Below, piece after piece: positions 272-4,796 of a stretch of DNA of 49,787 nt. A program made the translations under genes and the position numbers. The notes below the pieces were generated by a model. The model did not search any database. It was not told the origin of the DNA and was given only the letters and a program-made list of their open reading frames with translations. The DNA lies in NCBI GenBank assembly GCA_017469115.1, contig JAFUGY010000114.1, positions 1-49,787 on the forward strand, given 5' to 3'. Every line of letters begins with the position of its first letter. Positions within the stretch are counted from its first letter, which is position 1. The DNA is from Oscillospiraceae bacterium. GTDB taxonomy: Bacteria; Bacillota; Clostridia; Oscillospirales; Oscillospiraceae.

Positions 272-480
272 TCGCCTCTCCCAATCAGCTTCACTGTTAA
301 CTCCCTCTGACGGAGCCAAGGTATAAAAAAAAGACTTACAAGCCGGTGATCGTCGTGTCATCACTGCCTGTAAGTCAGGATAGAAGCCGGAGCATTTAAC
401 CGGATTCCGTAATATTTGTTTTACTCAGTACTGCGGGTACCACACATTGCCATCGTCATCGGTAAGAATGCCGCCGTCGT
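272..480. repeat. Duplicated segment, copy 1 (small repeat, terminator and gene 3' end)
   Basis: This stretch recurs at 2178-2389. Both copies contain, in the same order, a short CTCCCTC-type imperfect inverted repeat, an A-rich run, a hairpin beginning GACTTACA and ending TAAGTC, the text AGAAGCCGGAGCATTTAACC, and the last codons of a small secreted-protein gene. The CTCCCTC element resembles interspersed repeats common in Oscillospiraceae genomes; that comparison is from memory. Positions 1-270 before it hold no gene that I can support. Confidence 0.75.
325..376 (-). terminator. Rho-independent terminator of the small secreted-protein gene
   Basis: An imperfect hairpin (arms GACTTACA...GTGAT and ATCAC...TAAGTC, 333-376) is followed in minus-strand reading by eight T residues (325-332). 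It lies about 50 bp beyond the stop codon of the minus-strand gene ending at 425. Confidence 0.8.
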
Positions 481-823
481 CCATGACTCCTTTGAAAATG
501 GTGCTGCTGTTGCTATCAAAAACTACCAGTTCCCCATTTTCGTTGACGAAGCTGCTGTAGTGTTGGCCGACTCTGAGATCATCTTTGGATCTGAACATGA
601 CAGTGCCGTCCTCATACACATAGAGTGCATTGCCATCCGGGTCGTCATCCATCTTAAAGTACTTGTAAGCATACGGATTCGGATTCATCTCATCTGCGGA
701 GGCCTGCGGGGCAAACGCGGCTGCGACGAGGCAAACGGTGAGGAGGCCGACCATCATGGCAGCACATACGATGAAGCTGACGATTTTTCTTGCAGCGAAG
801 TAAGTAAGAATTGCTTTGAACAT
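425..823 (-). CDS. Small secreted or membrane-anchored protein of unknown function
   Basis: This gene encodes 132 residues. A positively charged N-terminus (residues 1-15) is followed by a hydrophobic stretch (about 16-40) and an Ala-rich APQASA site, so it is probably exported with a signal peptide. The mature part of about 90 residues is acidic and rich in Tyr, Asp and Gly, and ends in DGNVWYPQY. I recognise no family. The start is fixed by CAAAGGAG eight nucleotides upstream, a leader identical to those of the neighbouring peptide genes at 917 and 4508. The promoter carries the same tandem operator, so the gene is probably co-regulated with the double-glycine peptides. A truncated second copy of its 3' end lies at 2331-2389. 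Confidence 0.7.
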   Translation of the reverse strand: MFKAILTYFAARKIVSFIVCAAMMVGLLTVCLVAAAFAPQASADEMNPNPYAYKYFKMDDDPDGNALYVYEDGTVMFRSKDDLRVGQHYSSFVNENGELVVFDSNSSTIFKGVMDDGGILTDDDGNVWYPQY

Positions 824-859: not shown

Positions 860-893
860 ATTTTATCACATGATCTATCACAGATTTGTCACA
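860..893 (-). promoter_or_regulatory. Promoter with tandem 11-bp operator, copy 3
   Basis: Minus-strand reading gives TGTGACAAATC followed directly by TGTGATAGATC (877-893 covers the core), then a -10 box TAAAAT at 860-865. Exactly 11 nt separate the operator core from the -10. The same arrangement occurs at 1259-1292 and 4763-4796. The geometry, direct repeats on an 11-bp period replacing a normal -35, is that of OmpR/PhoB-family response regulator sites; the regulator itself is not in this window. Confidence 0.65.
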
Positions 894-916: not shown

Positions 917-1183
917 TTATCTACGATCCTGAGGGAACGGAAGCGGACGGGCAGGAGCCATCGGAGCCATAGGGGCCTTATTCCCTCTGCGATCCTGGGG
1001 GAACGGAAGCGGACGTGCAGGTGTCTTGGAGTCCTGCTGGAGCTCGATGCCTTCGACAGCTTCAGCGATAGGGCTTAACAGCCATTCTACGAACGCATCA
1101 ACAACTGTCCAGTCATCATCGCCGCCGGTGACTGCATTCATTTCTACTTCATTGAGCATTTTTGCATTTTCGAACTTTTTCAT
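917..1183 (-). CDS. Double-glycine leader peptide with internal Pro/Arg repeat
   Basis: This gene encodes 88 residues. The start at 1183 is chosen because AAAGGAG lies nine nucleotides upstream; an extension to 1258 would translate the promoter leader. Residues 1-21 form a leader (MKKFENAKMLNEVEMNAVTGG) that fits the pattern of class II bacteriocin and related peptides cleaved after Gly-Gly by C39 peptidase ABC exporters. The predicted mature part begins DDDWTVVDAF and contains a 22-residue-period duplication: APARPLPFPQDRR is present twice, at about 55-66 and 77-88. At DNA level, 924-955 and 990-1021 are repeats of 32 nt with two differences. No modifying enzyme, immunity gene or C39 exporter is nearby, so whether it is a bacteriocin, a signal or another exported peptide is open. 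Confidence 0.75.
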   Translation of the reverse strand: MKKFENAKMLNEVEMNAVTGGDDDWTVVDAFVEWLLSPIAEAVEGIELQQDSKTPARPLPFPQDRRGNKAPMAPMAPARPLPFPQDRR

Positions 1184-1258
1184 TTTTTTAATCTCCTTTG
1201 TTTTCATTTGTTTATTTAGCCTCTTGGGCTGATTTGTTTTTCTCTTGTTTACAGGCAC

Positions 1259-1292
1259 AGTATAGCACGCTATCCATCACAGAACTGTCACA
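1259..1292 (-). promoter_or_regulatory. Promoter with tandem 11-bp operator, copy 1
   Basis: Minus-strand reading gives TGTGACAGTTC and TGTGATGGATA in tandem (core 1276-1292), 11 nt, then TATACT at 1259-1264 as the -10 box. About 185 bp from here through the ribosome binding site (1184-1370) is nearly identical to 4688-4873, showing that promoter and leader were duplicated together. Confidence 0.7.
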
Positions 1293-1414
1293 CGATCAGG
1301 AGATTCTGAAAATATTGTTCAGGCACTAATAAAGATTATCAGAAAGGGCAAGACAGAAGAACCGTCCGCGTCTTCCTGGACTAAGAAACACAAAAAGTAA
1401 AGCAGGTAATCGTT

Positions 1415-2101
1415 ATGGCATCACTACAACCTATGAATCATATAGAACGGCGGGATCAGCAGATCCTTTATATTTCAGATGATACGGTATTTGAAGAGCA
1501 AAAGAAATGCCGGGCAATCCTGCAAAAGCTGAATTTCATGGATCGGGCGGATTTTGCTGGTATCTCTGCACTGGTAAAAGAACTGCTCGGCACTTCGGAC
1601 GGAGCATTCCTGAATCCACCGTTCTATTGTGATTACGGCACTCACATCCATGTTGGAAAGAATTTTTTTGCCAATTACAACTGCACCATCATCGATGTGG
1701 CTCCCGTGGTAATCGGTGACAACTGCATGCTGGCACCCAATGTAGCGATTTACACTGCAGGTCATCCCGTCCACCCCGCAGCGAGAAATACTGCCTATGA
1801 ATACGGAATCAGTGTAACCATCGGCCATAATGTATGGATCGGCGGCAATGCGGTGATTTTGCCCGGGGTAAACATTGGGAATAATGCGGTGATTGGCGCA
1901 GGCAGTGTGGTGACGAAAGACATTCCTGCCTGGGGTGTTGCCGCCGGGAATCCCTGCAGGGTAATCCGCAAAATCACCGAAGCAGACCGGAATACCTATT
2001 TTCGCCATGTACCCGTGGATCAGGAGGCACTGGCACATATGCAGCAGATGTGGGCGGAGAGCAACGATCCAATCAGATATCCAACTGCCCCGGAAGGATG
2101 A
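1415..2101 (+). CDS. Maltose/galactoside-type O-acetyltransferase
   Basis: This 228-residue protein belongs to the Maa/LacA hexapeptide-repeat family, which transfers acetyl from acetyl-CoA to a sugar hydroxyl. The N-terminal helical domain is typical (EQKKCRAILQKLNF). It is followed by PPFYCDYG-HIHVG, the Asn/His-rich HPVHP loop holding the likely catalytic His at about 117, and a left-handed beta-helix with hexapeptide turns such as IGDNCMLAPN, IGHNVWIGG and IGNNAVIGAGSVVTKDIP. About 30 residues after AAGNPCRVIRKI extend beyond the usual end near 190-200 residues. The start has only a weak upstream AGGT; Met7 is an alternative. It is a single gene on the opposite strand to the peptide genes, and its sugar substrate cannot be read from the sequence. 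Confidence 0.85.
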   Translation: MASLQPMNHIERRDQQILYISDDTVFEEQKKCRAILQKLNFMDRADFAGISALVKELLGTSDGAFLNPPFYCDYGTHIHVGKNFFANYNCTIIDVAPVVIGDNCMLAPNVAIYTAGHPVHPAARNTAYEYGISVTIGHNVWIGGNAVILPGVNIGNNAVIGAGSVVTKDIPAWGVAAGNPCRVIRKITEADRNTYFRHVPVDQEALAHMQQMWAESNDPIRYPTAPEG

Positions 2102-2231
2102 GATAAATTGCAGATTTACTCATGATGTTTGAGAATTGAGAACGGTTCTCTTCCTTTCCGAGTAGTTTTGAGTCTACCACTCCCTCACTTAGCTTACACT
2201 GACAGCTCCCTCGGAGAGGGAGCCTGGGCAT

Positions 2232-2282
2232 AAAAAAAGACTTACAGGTCGGTGATCGTCTTGTCATCACTGCCTGTAAGTC
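2232..2282 (-). terminator. Orphan copy of the small-gene terminator
   Basis: The hairpin 2239-2282 (arms GACTTACAGG and CCTGTAAGTC) is followed in minus-strand reading by T residues at 2232-2238. It duplicates the terminator at 325-376 and now follows only a gene fragment; it may also serve as the terminator of the acetyltransferase region on the other strand. Confidence 0.6.
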
Positions 2283-2330
2283 GGGATAGAAGCCGGAGCA
2301 TTTAACCGGATTCCGGAATATTACCTTTTA

Positions 2331-2389
2331 TCAGTACTGCGGGTACCACACATTGCCGTCGGTATCGGTAAGCATGCCGCTATCGTCCA
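2331..2389 (-). pseudogene. 3' remnant of a paralogue of the small secreted-protein gene
   Basis: Minus-strand translation gives MDDSGMLTDTDGNVWYPQY and a stop. This matches the C-terminus MDDGGILTDDDGNVWYPQY of the gene at 425-823. Nothing upstream of 2389 continues the reading frame, so the gene is truncated after its last 19 codons. Confidence 0.8.
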
Positions 2390-2551
2390 TTCATAATATT
2401 TAAAGTCGGAATACGGAAGCGATATGGTGTTCGAGTGGCTTGATGTCACGGGGGGTATTCAGCATAAATCATCTCGCTAAGCCGATTAGTAAAAGACATA
2501 GCGAGATTTTATTGTATGTTGAAAAGCATGTAGAATAAGGAAAAGCAGTAC

Positions 2552-2613
2552 TTGCTATTTAAATAGAAGTATGATAAACTCTCGGTAAGCCATTATAAAA
2601 ATGACTTACCGAG
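2552..2613 (+). promoter_or_regulatory. Promoter and inverted-repeat operator of the DUF234 ATPase gene
   Basis: A TTGCTA -35 box (2552-2557) and TAAACT -10 box (2575-2580) are 17 nt apart. Immediately downstream lies an inverted repeat with 14-nt arms and one mismatch (CTCGGTAAGCCATT at 2581-2594, AATGACTTACCGAG at 2600-2613), which ends about 8 nt before the ribosome binding site. Its position just past the -10 suits a repressor operator or a 5' mRNA hairpin. Confidence 0.5.
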
Positions 2614-2632
2614 AAAATATAGGTGGAACAAA

Positions 2633-4072
2633 ATGATCATTGCAAGAACAGAAGAACTGAAAGCGCTAAGAAATGCGACAGAAGCGGATGAGTCAAGGTT
2701 TATTGCTGTTTATGGTCGCCGGCGTGTGGGGAAAACCTTTCTGATTAGAGAGGCGTTTGAATACCACTTTGTCTTCCAGCATGCTGGCCTCTCACCGCTG
2801 GAGGGGGGAAAAACAAAGAAAGCTCAGTTGGAAGCTTTCTCTGTATCGCTCTCCAAAGCCGGTCTGAAATACTTTAAAACGCCAGACAGCTGGCTGGAAG
2901 CCTTCAGCCTACTGGAGGATTTAATAGACCTGTCAAATGAGCCGAAAAAGGTTATCTTTATCGATGAACTATCTTGGATGGATACAAGGAGATCGGATTT
3001 GATTCCGGCACTTGAATATTTCTGGAACGCAAGAATGACGGCAAGAAAAGATATCGTGCTGGTTGTGTGTGCGTCAGCTACGAGCTGGATGATGAACAGG
3101 ATCGTCCATAACAGGGGAGGACTTTACAACAGGCTTCATCTGAAAATCTGTCTGCAACCGTTTATCCTGTCAGAATGTGAATCGTTTGCAGCGGCCAAAG
3201 GCATCAGGATGAATAGATATCAGCTGCTTGAGTGTTATATGATTCTTGGGGGAATTCCCTATTACTGGGATCAGCTGGACAAGAGCCTTGGGCTATCTCA
3301 AAATATTGATGCTATGTTTTTTGCTGAAAATCCTATCCTGGAGGATGAATTCCGGTACCTGTATGCTTCTATTTTTAACAGTCCGGAGCCGTATATCAGG
3401 ATTGTAACCGCCTTGGGAAAAAAGAAAGTTGGAATGCTGCGGGAAGAACTGTTAGCTGCAACCGGGATCCCTGATTCCGGCACGTTCTCCGAGATGCTTG
3501 AGAACCTGGAAAGCTGTGGCTTCATCCGCCATTATGATGAGTTTGGCAAGAAAAAAAGGAATAAGCGATATCAACTGATCGATAATTTTACCCTATTTCA
3601 TTTTAAGTTCCTGGATCAGAAGCCCAATGACCCACACTATTGGACAAATCAACTGAATACACCGATGAGGAATACATGGTGTGGACTGGCTTTTGAAAGG
3701 GTGTGCCTGGAACATATCAGCGCGATAAAGCACAAGCTGGGAATTTCAGGGGTCCTGACAGAAACGTTATCATGGTCATGTGACGAAAATCAGGAAAAGG
3801 GTCTTTTCGGGTCCCAGATTGATCTTTTGATCGTCAGAAAAGATCAGGTGATTAATCTGTGTGAAATGAAATATGCTTCTGCTCCATATATGATTACAAA
3901 AAGGATGGATGAAAGTATTCGGAAGAAAATCAGTGATTTAACGACAGATACCGGTACAAGATATGCGGTGCATACAACGTTCATCACACCATACGGTTTG
4001 ACGAAAAACGAGTACGAAGGAAATGTGCAGGCTCAAATTACTGCAGAAGATTTGTTTTTCCCGTACGCCTGA
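2633..4072 (+). CDS. Archaeal-type AAA ATPase with C-terminal DUF234 domain
   Basis: This 479-residue protein begins with an ATPase_2-type P-loop (YGRRRVGKT, residues about 27-35) and a Walker B stretch (VIFIDELSWMD, about 107-117). A winged-helix-like middle segment follows (about 270-330). The C-terminal DUF234 part contains GSQIDLLIV and a CEMKYA motif, resembling the D...ExK active site of PD-(D/E)XK nucleases. Such proteins are widespread in archaea and anaerobic bacteria and their role is unknown; a nuclease or defence role is only inferred from the C-terminus. AGGTGG lies upstream of the ATG. The gene stands alone with its own promoter and hairpin operator and interrupts the cluster of small peptide genes. 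Confidence 0.85.
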   Translation: MIIARTEELKALRNATEADESRFIAVYGRRRVGKTFLIREAFEYHFVFQHAGLSPLEGGKTKKAQLEAFSVSLSKAGLKYFKTPDSWLEAFSLLEDLIDLSNEPKKVIFIDELSWMDTRRSDLIPALEYFWNARMTARKDIVLVVCASATSWMMNRIVHNRGGLYNRLHLKICLQPFILSECESFAAAKGIRMNRYQLLECYMILGGIPYYWDQLDKSLGLSQNIDAMFFAENPILEDEFRYLYASIFNSPEPYIRIVTALGKKKVGMLREELLAATGIPDSGTFSEMLENLESCGFIRHYDEFGKKKRNKRYQLIDNFTLFHFKFLDQKPNDPHYWTNQLNTPMRNTWCGLAFERVCLEHISAIKHKLGISGVLTETLSWSCDENQEKGLFGSQIDLLIVRKDQVINLCEMKYASAPYMITKRMDESIRKKISDLTTDTGTRYAVHTTFITPYGLTKNEYEGNVQAQITAEDLFFPYA

Positions 4073-4232
4073 ATGTAACTTTACAATTAACAATTCAGTT
4101 AAGGCCGCATCCATTCATATAAGACAAAAGAACAGGCCATGTTGAGAATCCACACACGCAACGAGCAAAAAAGAGGTTTGCATAACTGATTTCGCATTAA
4201 CCGTCCCGTTGTCTTGTACAATAAAACAGGTG

Positions 4233-4276
4233 AAAAAACAGCAGCCTGAAGCGGAGTCACTAGTCTCGCCTCAGGC
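4233..4276 (-). terminator. Terminator of the two-peptide operon
   Basis: Imperfect hairpin 4244-4276 (GCCTGAAGCGGAG / CTCGCCTCAGGC), followed in minus-strand reading by TTTTTT at 4233-4238. It lies 20 bp past the stop of the peptide gene ending at 4296. The stretch 4073-4232 holds nothing I recognise. Confidence 0.75.
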
Positions 4277-4295
4277 CGGTTATCAATGATAAATA

Positions 4296-4505
4296 TTACC
4301 TTCCAAAATTAAAGTGTAGATTGAGGGCAGCTTGTTGTTCTTCTTCCTGACTTGCCTGCCGTCCCAAGGGACCATGTTCAGGATTTCCCGGCTCTGCCGG
4401 TACGGGCTGCGAGGAAGGGGAATAGAAAGTGAGGCCACTGCCACCACCGGCAACCTTTCCTATTTCCAGCTCGTTGAGCTCTTTCTTGTTTTCAAGATCT
4501 TTCAT
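4296..4505 (-). CDS. Double-glycine leader peptide, second gene of the operon
   Basis: This gene encodes 69 residues starting MKDLENKKELNELEIGKVAGG, a leader with the ELNELEIGKVAGG pattern of peptides processed after Gly-Gly. The predicted mature part is about 47 residues, rich in Pro, Ser and Gln, ending LHFNFGR. The start at 4505 follows GGAG at nine nucleotides; a longer start at 4520 would put that ribosome binding site inside the gene. It begins two nucleotides after the stop codon of the upstream peptide gene, so the two are translationally coupled. No modification or export genes are adjacent. Confidence 0.7.
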   Translation of the reverse strand: MKDLENKKELNELEIGKVAGGGSGLTFYSPSSQPVPAEPGNPEHGPLGRQASQEEEQQAALNLHFNFGR

Positions 4506-4507
4506 TT

Positions 4508-4687
4508 TCAAATACTCCATTTAAGACCATAGAACTCATTCATAGTTCTGTAACCCTCATCAGGATCTTCTTCATCATCTTCATCTTCATCCTGAACCGG
4601 TTCTTCATATTCATCGATGACGCAGCCACCGAATACTACATTCATTTCTTCTTCATTGAGCTCTTTCACATTTTCAAGAATTTTCAT
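4508..4687 (-). CDS. Acidic double-glycine leader peptide, first gene of the operon
   Basis: This short gene encodes 59 residues. The leader is MKILENVKELNEEEMNVVFGG, matching the leaders at 917-1183 and 4296-4505. The mature part starts with a lone Cys (CVIDEYEEPV), is followed by a strongly acidic run (about residues 33-44, almost all Asp and Glu), and ends with an aromatic NEFYGLKWSI tail. CAAAGGAG lies eight nucleotides upstream of the ATG, in the leader shared with the other small genes. The stop and the next start are arranged as TGAAAATG, so the two peptides are made together, as in two-component exported peptides. Confidence 0.75.
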   Translation of the reverse strand: MKILENVKELNEEEMNVVFGGCVIDEYEEPVQDEDEDDEEDPDEGYRTMNEFYGLKWSI

Positions 4688-4762: not shown

Positions 4763-4796
4763 AGTATAGCACGCCATCTATCACAGAACCGTCACA
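4763..4796 (-). promoter_or_regulatory. Promoter with tandem 11-bp operator, copy 2
   Basis: Minus-strand reading gives TGTGACGGTTC and TGTGATAGATG in tandem (core 4780-4796), 11 nt, then TATACT (4763-4768). It drives the two-peptide operon and is the near-identical partner of 1259-1292. Confidence 0.7.

Follow-up and report, generated by a model that had tools for sequence, protein, structure and literature searches.

How might the products of three small genes leave the cell when no exporter is encoded beside them, and to what system do they belong? The genes lie in a 49,787-nucleotide stretch from an Oscillospiraceae bacterium (contig JAFUGY010000114.1, assembly GCA_017469115.1), here called the window, which is contig C124 of a 2.64 Mb assembly of 148 contigs that is 89% complete. 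Each product begins with a double-glycine (GG) leader, and a preliminary description of the window had suggested that they could be an orphan set of three peptides with the pattern of class II bacteriocins and quorum peptides. Our analysis instead favors the view that they are secreted cargo of an exoprotein regulon dispersed over the genome, whose GG members would leave through a LahT-like exporter on another contig. From the sequence data at hand we put the probability of this reading at about 0.75.

Three GG precursors under a shared promoter motif

We found the three open reading frames (ORFs) where the preliminary description had placed them, all on the minus strand, by ORF reading and by matches to a leader model. 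Precursor 1 (917..1183, 88 aa) consists of a leader (1121-1183), an acidic or amphipathic stretch and a Pro/Arg tail in which RPLPFPQDRR occurs twice, and has a paralogue on contig C112 and relatives in genome G026. Precursor 2 (4508..4687, 59 aa) has its leader at 4625-4687 and an acidic mature part with one Cys. Precursor 3 (4296..4505, 69 aa; leader 4443-4505) begins 2 bases after the stop of precursor 2, and we therefore treat the two as one operon, of which precursor 3 is the second gene. A GGAG ribosome site stands ahead of each of the three genes. The leaders are of the class II type, 21 residues each with GG at the end: MKKFENAKMLNEVEMNAVTGG, MKDLENKKELNELEIGKVAGG (a third G follows) and MKILENVKELNEEEMNVVFGG, the second and third being 57% and 67% identical to the first. 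All carry V at -4, M or I at -7, E at -8 and L at -12.

The mature parts had been described as completely different. They do vary among the three window products, but they are not unique. The paralogue on C112, a contig that also holds a second GG gene, carries the same RPLPFPQDRRGNKAPMAPxAPARPLPFPQDRR tail as precursor 1, and G026 encodes two further peptides with RPLPFPQDRRG as well as a peptide resembling precursor 3 by eye (GPxGxQxSxEEE). In a set of 60 related genomes (own genome included, 37 in its genus), homologues of precursor 1 occur in three: the own genome, G026 and, as a weak match, G003 (E 0.009).

The DNA upstream of the window genes shares the motif TGTGAY-N5-TGTGAY-N11-TANNNT with the GG-leader LysM gene of the exporter locus on contig C106. 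Its three window sites are on the minus strand. TGTGAC-N5-TGTGAT-N11-TATACT with an extended -10 (TGC) lies at 1259..1292, 75 nt upstream of the ATG at 1183, and TGTGAC-N5-TGTGAT-N11-TATACT recurs at 4763..4796, 75 nt upstream of the ATG at 4687, where it presumably serves both genes of the operon; the third, TGTGAC-N5-TGTGAT-N11-TAAAAT at 860..893, lies upstream of a gene at 425-823. These 3 exact matches compare with 0.16 expected from window shuffles at up to 2 mismatches. Across the own genome there are 22 sites (20 exact, 2 with one mismatch) and none for the reversed control. The spacing is specific: 21 of 65 TGTGAY pairs with spacers of 0-22 have a spacer of 5, 20 of those 21 carry the -10, and in every one of the 20 exact sites TG precedes the -10 by one base, at places that the pattern had left open. 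A sigma-70 scan gave no -35/-10 pair at the window sites, as expected for activator-dependent promoters.

Ten of the 22 sites are followed by GG-leader genes, 12 genes in all, as two sites serve two each. Further ORFs with this leader, which the preliminary description had proposed to look for, thus exist, and the set is not one of three: we found at least 12 GG-leader genes in the own genome by motif or leader model, all below a site. Nor does the term orphan fit, for the motif is common to at least nine further GG genes and to Sec- or membrane-type proteins. The leader model was built from ten leaders, including the three window ones, and seven of the ten had been found through the motif. 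It gave 11 own-genome matches, all 37-346 nt below a site; a twelfth leader, at C131:2030, escaped the model and was found otherwise. Because the model includes the window leaders, their E values (2e-9, 5e-8 and 2e-8) are not an independent test, and the agreement between leader matches and sites is only partly independent, most training leaders having come via the motif; the match on C12 is new. The independent support for these predicted leader genes is the shared promoter motif.

The fellow cargos point toward the cell surface. They include LysM proteins on C106 (Pfam-tested) and C12 (nearly identical by reading), a protein with two CW_7 repeats on C145 and a PepSY protein on C55; among the literature matches listed, none reports GG-leader LysM, CW_7 or PepSY cargo. 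It is because of this company that we favor a surface or exoprotein role for the window peptides. The main rival sees in them conventional class II bacteriocins or signalling peptides that leave through the C106 transporter, and takes the cell-wall-binding cargos as a side branch. The leader type is indeed that of class II bacteriocins, the 4508-4687 product matches Bacteriocin_IIc at 15 bits (below the cut-off of 27.1), and the co-regulated C64 peptide is rich in glycine zippers and bacteriocin-like, with matches below cut-off only. The RPLPFP repeats are also reminiscent of proline-rich antimicrobial peptides such as bovine Bac7. Against these points, no window product reaches the curated cut-off of a bacteriocin family, and precursors 1 and 3 match none at all. 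Among the three mature parts, two, acidic or rich in Pro/Ser/Gln, look neither cationic nor membrane-like, and a search of the PDB with the Pro/Arg tail gave only two weak matches to ribosomal L8. No immunity-type gene was recognized beside the window genes, which, with ORF lists read only, is a weak test; many co-regulated cargos in relatives are LysM or CW_7 proteins by reading, few of them Pfam-tested. We regard the bacteriocin role as unlikely, although it deserves more weight than any other alternative, and the earlier assignment to bacteriocins or quorum peptides as unsupported or beyond the data.

A LahT-like exporter on contig C106

The preliminary description had proposed that the peptides are served by a distant exporter, and had named in advance an empty genome-wide C39 search as evidence to the contrary. 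The search was not empty, and the proposal of a distant exporter is supported. The Peptidase_C39 profile has one match above cut-off in the own genome, on contig C106 (123.4 bits); the sole other match, on C15, falls short at 11.8 bits (cut-off 22). The window contig has none, in agreement with the earlier statement that the window lacks a C39 transporter. The C106 exporter is an NHLP-type ATP-binding cassette (ABC) protein, ABC1 (TIGR03796, 937.6 bits, cut-off 853.3), with ABC2 (TIGR03797, 710.8 bits, cut-off 709.4) after it and a short HlyD-like gene before it, the latter far below the TIGR03794 cut-off (32.4 versus 156.2 bits). Its peptidase domain is identical to LahT150 (6mpz) at 114 of 145 residues. 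The catalytic triad is intact, C29/H103/D119 aligning with Cys27/His101/Asp117 of LahT (PMC6363468).

LahT is described as a substrate-tolerant GG protease that needs leader positions -4, -7 and -12 (PMC6363468). Read by eye, all 12 own-genome leaders have L at -12, a hydrophobic residue at -7 and V, I or A at -4, and the window leaders fit the double-glycine rule for C39 peptidase-containing ABC transporters (PCATs): short, ending in GG, GA or GS, and hydrophobic at -4, -7 and -12 (PMC6363468, PMC7018657). The LahT-like peptidase of ABC1 would thus grip the leader at -12/-7/-4 and cut after GG, and the transporter would export the remainder, as homology suggests. Cleavage at GG is predicted from sequence only, and one could argue that the leader likeness is accidental and the window products uncleaved and cytosolic. 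This is very improbable: the leaders are 57-67% identical within the window, similar to those of unlinked genes that share the promoter type, and conform to the LahT rule, and they stay alike while the mature parts vary.

Neither NHLP (TIGR03793) nor Nif11 (TIGR03798) precursors reach their cut-offs in this 89% complete genome, the two Nif11 matches scoring 15.4 and 12.3 bits against 32.3; short GG leaders are therefore the only cargo recognized for the C106 exporter. LahT itself comes from a lanthipeptide operon (PMC6363468), and there are sub-cut-off matches to the TIGR04149 leaders of radical-SAM-modified peptides, so that the window products might be ribosomally synthesized and post-translationally modified peptides whose tailoring enzymes are encoded elsewhere. 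Precursors 1 and 3 contain no Cys and precursor 2 a single one, which excludes or nearly excludes lanthionine or sactionine rings, and the lack of NHLP or Nif11 precursors above cut-off and the ordinary folded domains of other cargos also speak against modification, leaving it quite improbable. For radical SAM and lanthionine enzymes, said earlier to be missing from the window, the coverage was a reading of its ORF lists.

In pneumococcus, one PCAT serves peptides encoded away from it. The pneumococcal ComAB, BlpAB and RtgAB systems resemble ours in their GG leaders, peptides being sorted to PCATs by leader residues -4, -7, -12 and -15 (PMC7018657), whereas the cargo here includes LysM, CW_7 and PepSY proteins and the candidate regulator is a SARP/OmpR-like response regulator rather than Rgg. 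The NHLP/Nif11 (N11P) cluster defined by TIGR03794, TIGR03796 and TIGR03797 (Haft 2010, PMC2887384) has the same exporter pair of ABC1 (with C39) and ABC2, but it has long NHLP or Nif11 leaders where we find short class-II-type ones, and here the HlyD-like gene is short and the cargo genes are scattered over the genome. The peptidase of Lachnospiraceae bacterium C6A11 LahT is closest, with 79% identity over 145 residues and the same catalytic residues; its nine Nif11-type lanthipeptide precursors lie in one cluster (PMC6363468), whereas the cargo of C106 is dispersed, not recognizably modified and partly made of folded domains.

A candidate regulator and the spread of the proposed regulon

On C106, two further genes may explain the shared motif. 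P0001 (L004:6372-7181) has a receiver domain, for which both sequence and fold searches gave PDB receivers; its DNA-binding half gave sequence matches to EmbR (2fez, residues 124-196, E 9e-5) and PhoP-type regulators. P0002 (L004:5866-6375, 169 aa) was present in all 80 regulator loci that we kept, the best 80 of 182 related loci in a regulator-alignment scan of a contig collection; it stands directly before the regulator in 40 of 40 printed coordinate pairs, its stop overlapping the regulator start in 38. Its predicted structure is confident (pLDDT 86.6), matches nothing in Pfam, NCBIfam, PHROGs, PADLOC or PDB folds and is possibly a new fold. A gene at L004:7264-9159 that recurs in many exporter loci encodes a large protein; its N-terminus is Sec-type by eye, and its C-terminus gives zinc-ribbon matches below cut-off.

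EmbR is a close structural relative of the SARP domain of AfsR (PMC10936776), and SARP-type activators bind 7-mer repeats with 4-bp spacers, an 11 bp period and, mostly, overlap with the -35 (PMC5930380, PMC10936776). To activators such as PimR and AfsR (PMC5930380, PMC10936776), P0001 may be likened for its EmbR-matching DNA-binding half, and its candidate target promoters for two repeats 11 bp apart at the -35; the fusion to a receiver domain, the occurrence in Clostridia and the repeat sequence are different. The motif has a repeat period of 11 bp, overlaps the -35 and, by our own count, leaves 10 bp from the end of the second 7-mer to the -10, against 8 bp in classical SARPs (PMC5930380, PMC10936776). 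We infer from co-occurrence that P0001 binds the motif, with TGTGACAGTTCTGTGATA as candidate DNA: encoded beside P0002, it would activate promoters in which two TGTGAC-type repeats 11 bp apart, together with an extended -10, replace the -35 box.

Among the 60 genomes the exact motif occurs in 14, all within the genus (reversed control 0 in every genome), and TIGR03796 scores above cut-off in 21, 20 of them in the genus. Thirteen of the 14 motif genomes have the exporter, and these same 13 are the genomes with close P0001 orthologs (66-100% identity), the next matches being paralogues of at most 39%; within the genus, Fisher's test for the link of regulator and motif gives p 4e-9, a value that ignores phylogeny. 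HlyD-like, ABC1, ABC2, P0002, regulator, large Sec-type protein and GG-LysM genes stand together in several fetched loci, and in others the regulator pair and exporter are apart or on different contigs.

Titles of the 80 kept loci are mostly of ruminant-gut Oscillospiraceae, Ruminococcaceae, Clostridiales and Lachnospiraceae, including Butyrivibrio and Pseudobutyrivibrio isolates. In 42 of these loci we found 84 exact sites (control 0), and a GG-leader ORF begins within 260 nt after 54 of the 84, as against 71 of 4000 random positions; the result is not fully independent because some contigs are the same as ones already examined. A recurrent GG cargo of about 140-150 aa (GSFASxTGTxLNLxVNW...) lies under the motif at L117:8566-9018, L123:19321, L125:2367 and in L246, one copy of which gave no match when tested against Pfam. 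From the 80 loci we chose 11 for whole-genome searches, and all 11 of these regulator-bearing genomes carry the motif (1-12 sites each, 80 in total, control 0); the Butyrivibrio and Pseudobutyrivibrio genomes have both regulator and motif.

The regulon might be real and yet be read by another factor, a different regulator or sigma factor, the P0002-P0001 pair merely co-traveling. The model of the P0001 DNA-binding domain is of low confidence, many of these genomes have paralogous regulators, and the co-occurrence in 13 genomes was counted without correction for relatedness. On the other side, among the regulators it is only close orthologs of P0001 that co-occur with the motif (in 13 of the 14 genomes with it versus 0 of the 46 without), the 11 regulator-bearing genomes outside the genus all have the motif, and the 11-bp direct repeats are of the SARP target type (PMC5930380, PMC10936776). 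Across the 13 orthologs the DNA-binding half is nearly invariant and the receiver half variable, and a site lies between ABC2 and the P0002-regulator pair in 7 of 10 stretches holding both, which resembles autoregulation. Another factor is thus improbable, and P0001 remains our preferred activator.

Several findings weigh against the regulon and its export route as we propose them. On the side of the regulator, SARPs carry an OmpR-like winged helix with a BTA domain after it; for P0001 the Trans_reg_C match is below cut-off and the predicted model of the DNA-binding part is poor. At position 53 the own P0001 carries Ser, unlike 12 of 13 orthologs, whose Asp there is likely the phospho-acceptor. 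On the side of the exporter, its genes in the own genome have no upstream site at up to 3 mismatches, the only site of that locus being at the GG-LysM gene; only 27 of the 80 regulator loci hold an ABC1 (at least 50% identity) within the fetched flank; and seven genus members have the exporter with neither motif nor regulator ortholog. The motif occurs in G009 (65% complete), where neither a regulator ortholog nor an exporter above cut-off is found, and in G001 a GG leader lies in a 3-kb locus that is free of sites, with up to 2 mismatches allowed. As for the cargo, the motif lacks specificity for GG genes: in the own genome, Sec- or membrane-type genes (by eye) follow nine of the 22 sites, and nothing clear follows another three. 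Of the 80 out-of-genus sites we read 30. The 25 in the nine Lachnospiraceae-type genomes have no GG ORF below them, and the five GG cases (four by pattern, one by eye) all come from two Ruminococcaceae-type genomes. The regulon is therefore older or wider than the GG route, and we infer that an exoprotein regulon came first and that GG cargo was added where the exporter was present.

Other window features and wider meaning

The gene below the third window site (425..823, minus strand, ORF reading) encodes a 132-aa protein without a GG leader and with an N-terminal hydrophobic segment. It has no Pfam or NCBIfam match above cut-off and is presumably exported; genes below the C62 and C30 sites have N-termini similar by eye. 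After the 4508/4296 operon, at about 4233..4279 (minus strand), the RNA fold has a terminator-like hairpin with a U run read in the sequence, although the whole folded stretch of 141 nt has a z of only -1.47 and the hairpin is missing from the terminator scan listing. Between the two GG loci, the ATPase encoded at 2633-4072 (plus strand) aligns almost end to end with the PADLOC candidate defence family PDC-S27 (627 bits) and also matches Pfam ATPase_2. By reading, 2234-2400 looks like a remnant copy of 330-480, where the 425-823 gene ends and has its terminator region, and the upstream DNA of the 917 and 4508 genes is near-identical; the region may therefore have grown by local duplication.

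Taken together, motif promoters would drive both short proteins with class-II-type GG leaders and Sec- or membrane-type proteins. Once released, these proteins would act outside the cell, some of them (LysM, CW_7) probably bound to peptidoglycan, so that the system would mainly be an export route for small surface or exoproteins and not a single bacteriocin cluster. Each part belongs to a known family. More tentatively, at somewhat below even odds, we suggest that what was once a bacteriocin pump, a C39/GG exporter, now serves as a general secretion route under global control, carrying small folded cell-wall-binding proteins alongside Sec, and that one response regulator with P0002 switches on Sec- and GG-type exoproteins together.

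GG-leader peptides are usually labelled bacteriocins or pheromones and sought beside their exporter. Here the cargo, in part with peptidoglycan-binding domains, is scattered and was found by a promoter motif. If our reading is true, one DNA pattern would suffice to predict a large mis-labelled secretome of ruminant-gut Clostridia, and it could be tested directly which PCATs export folded proteins.

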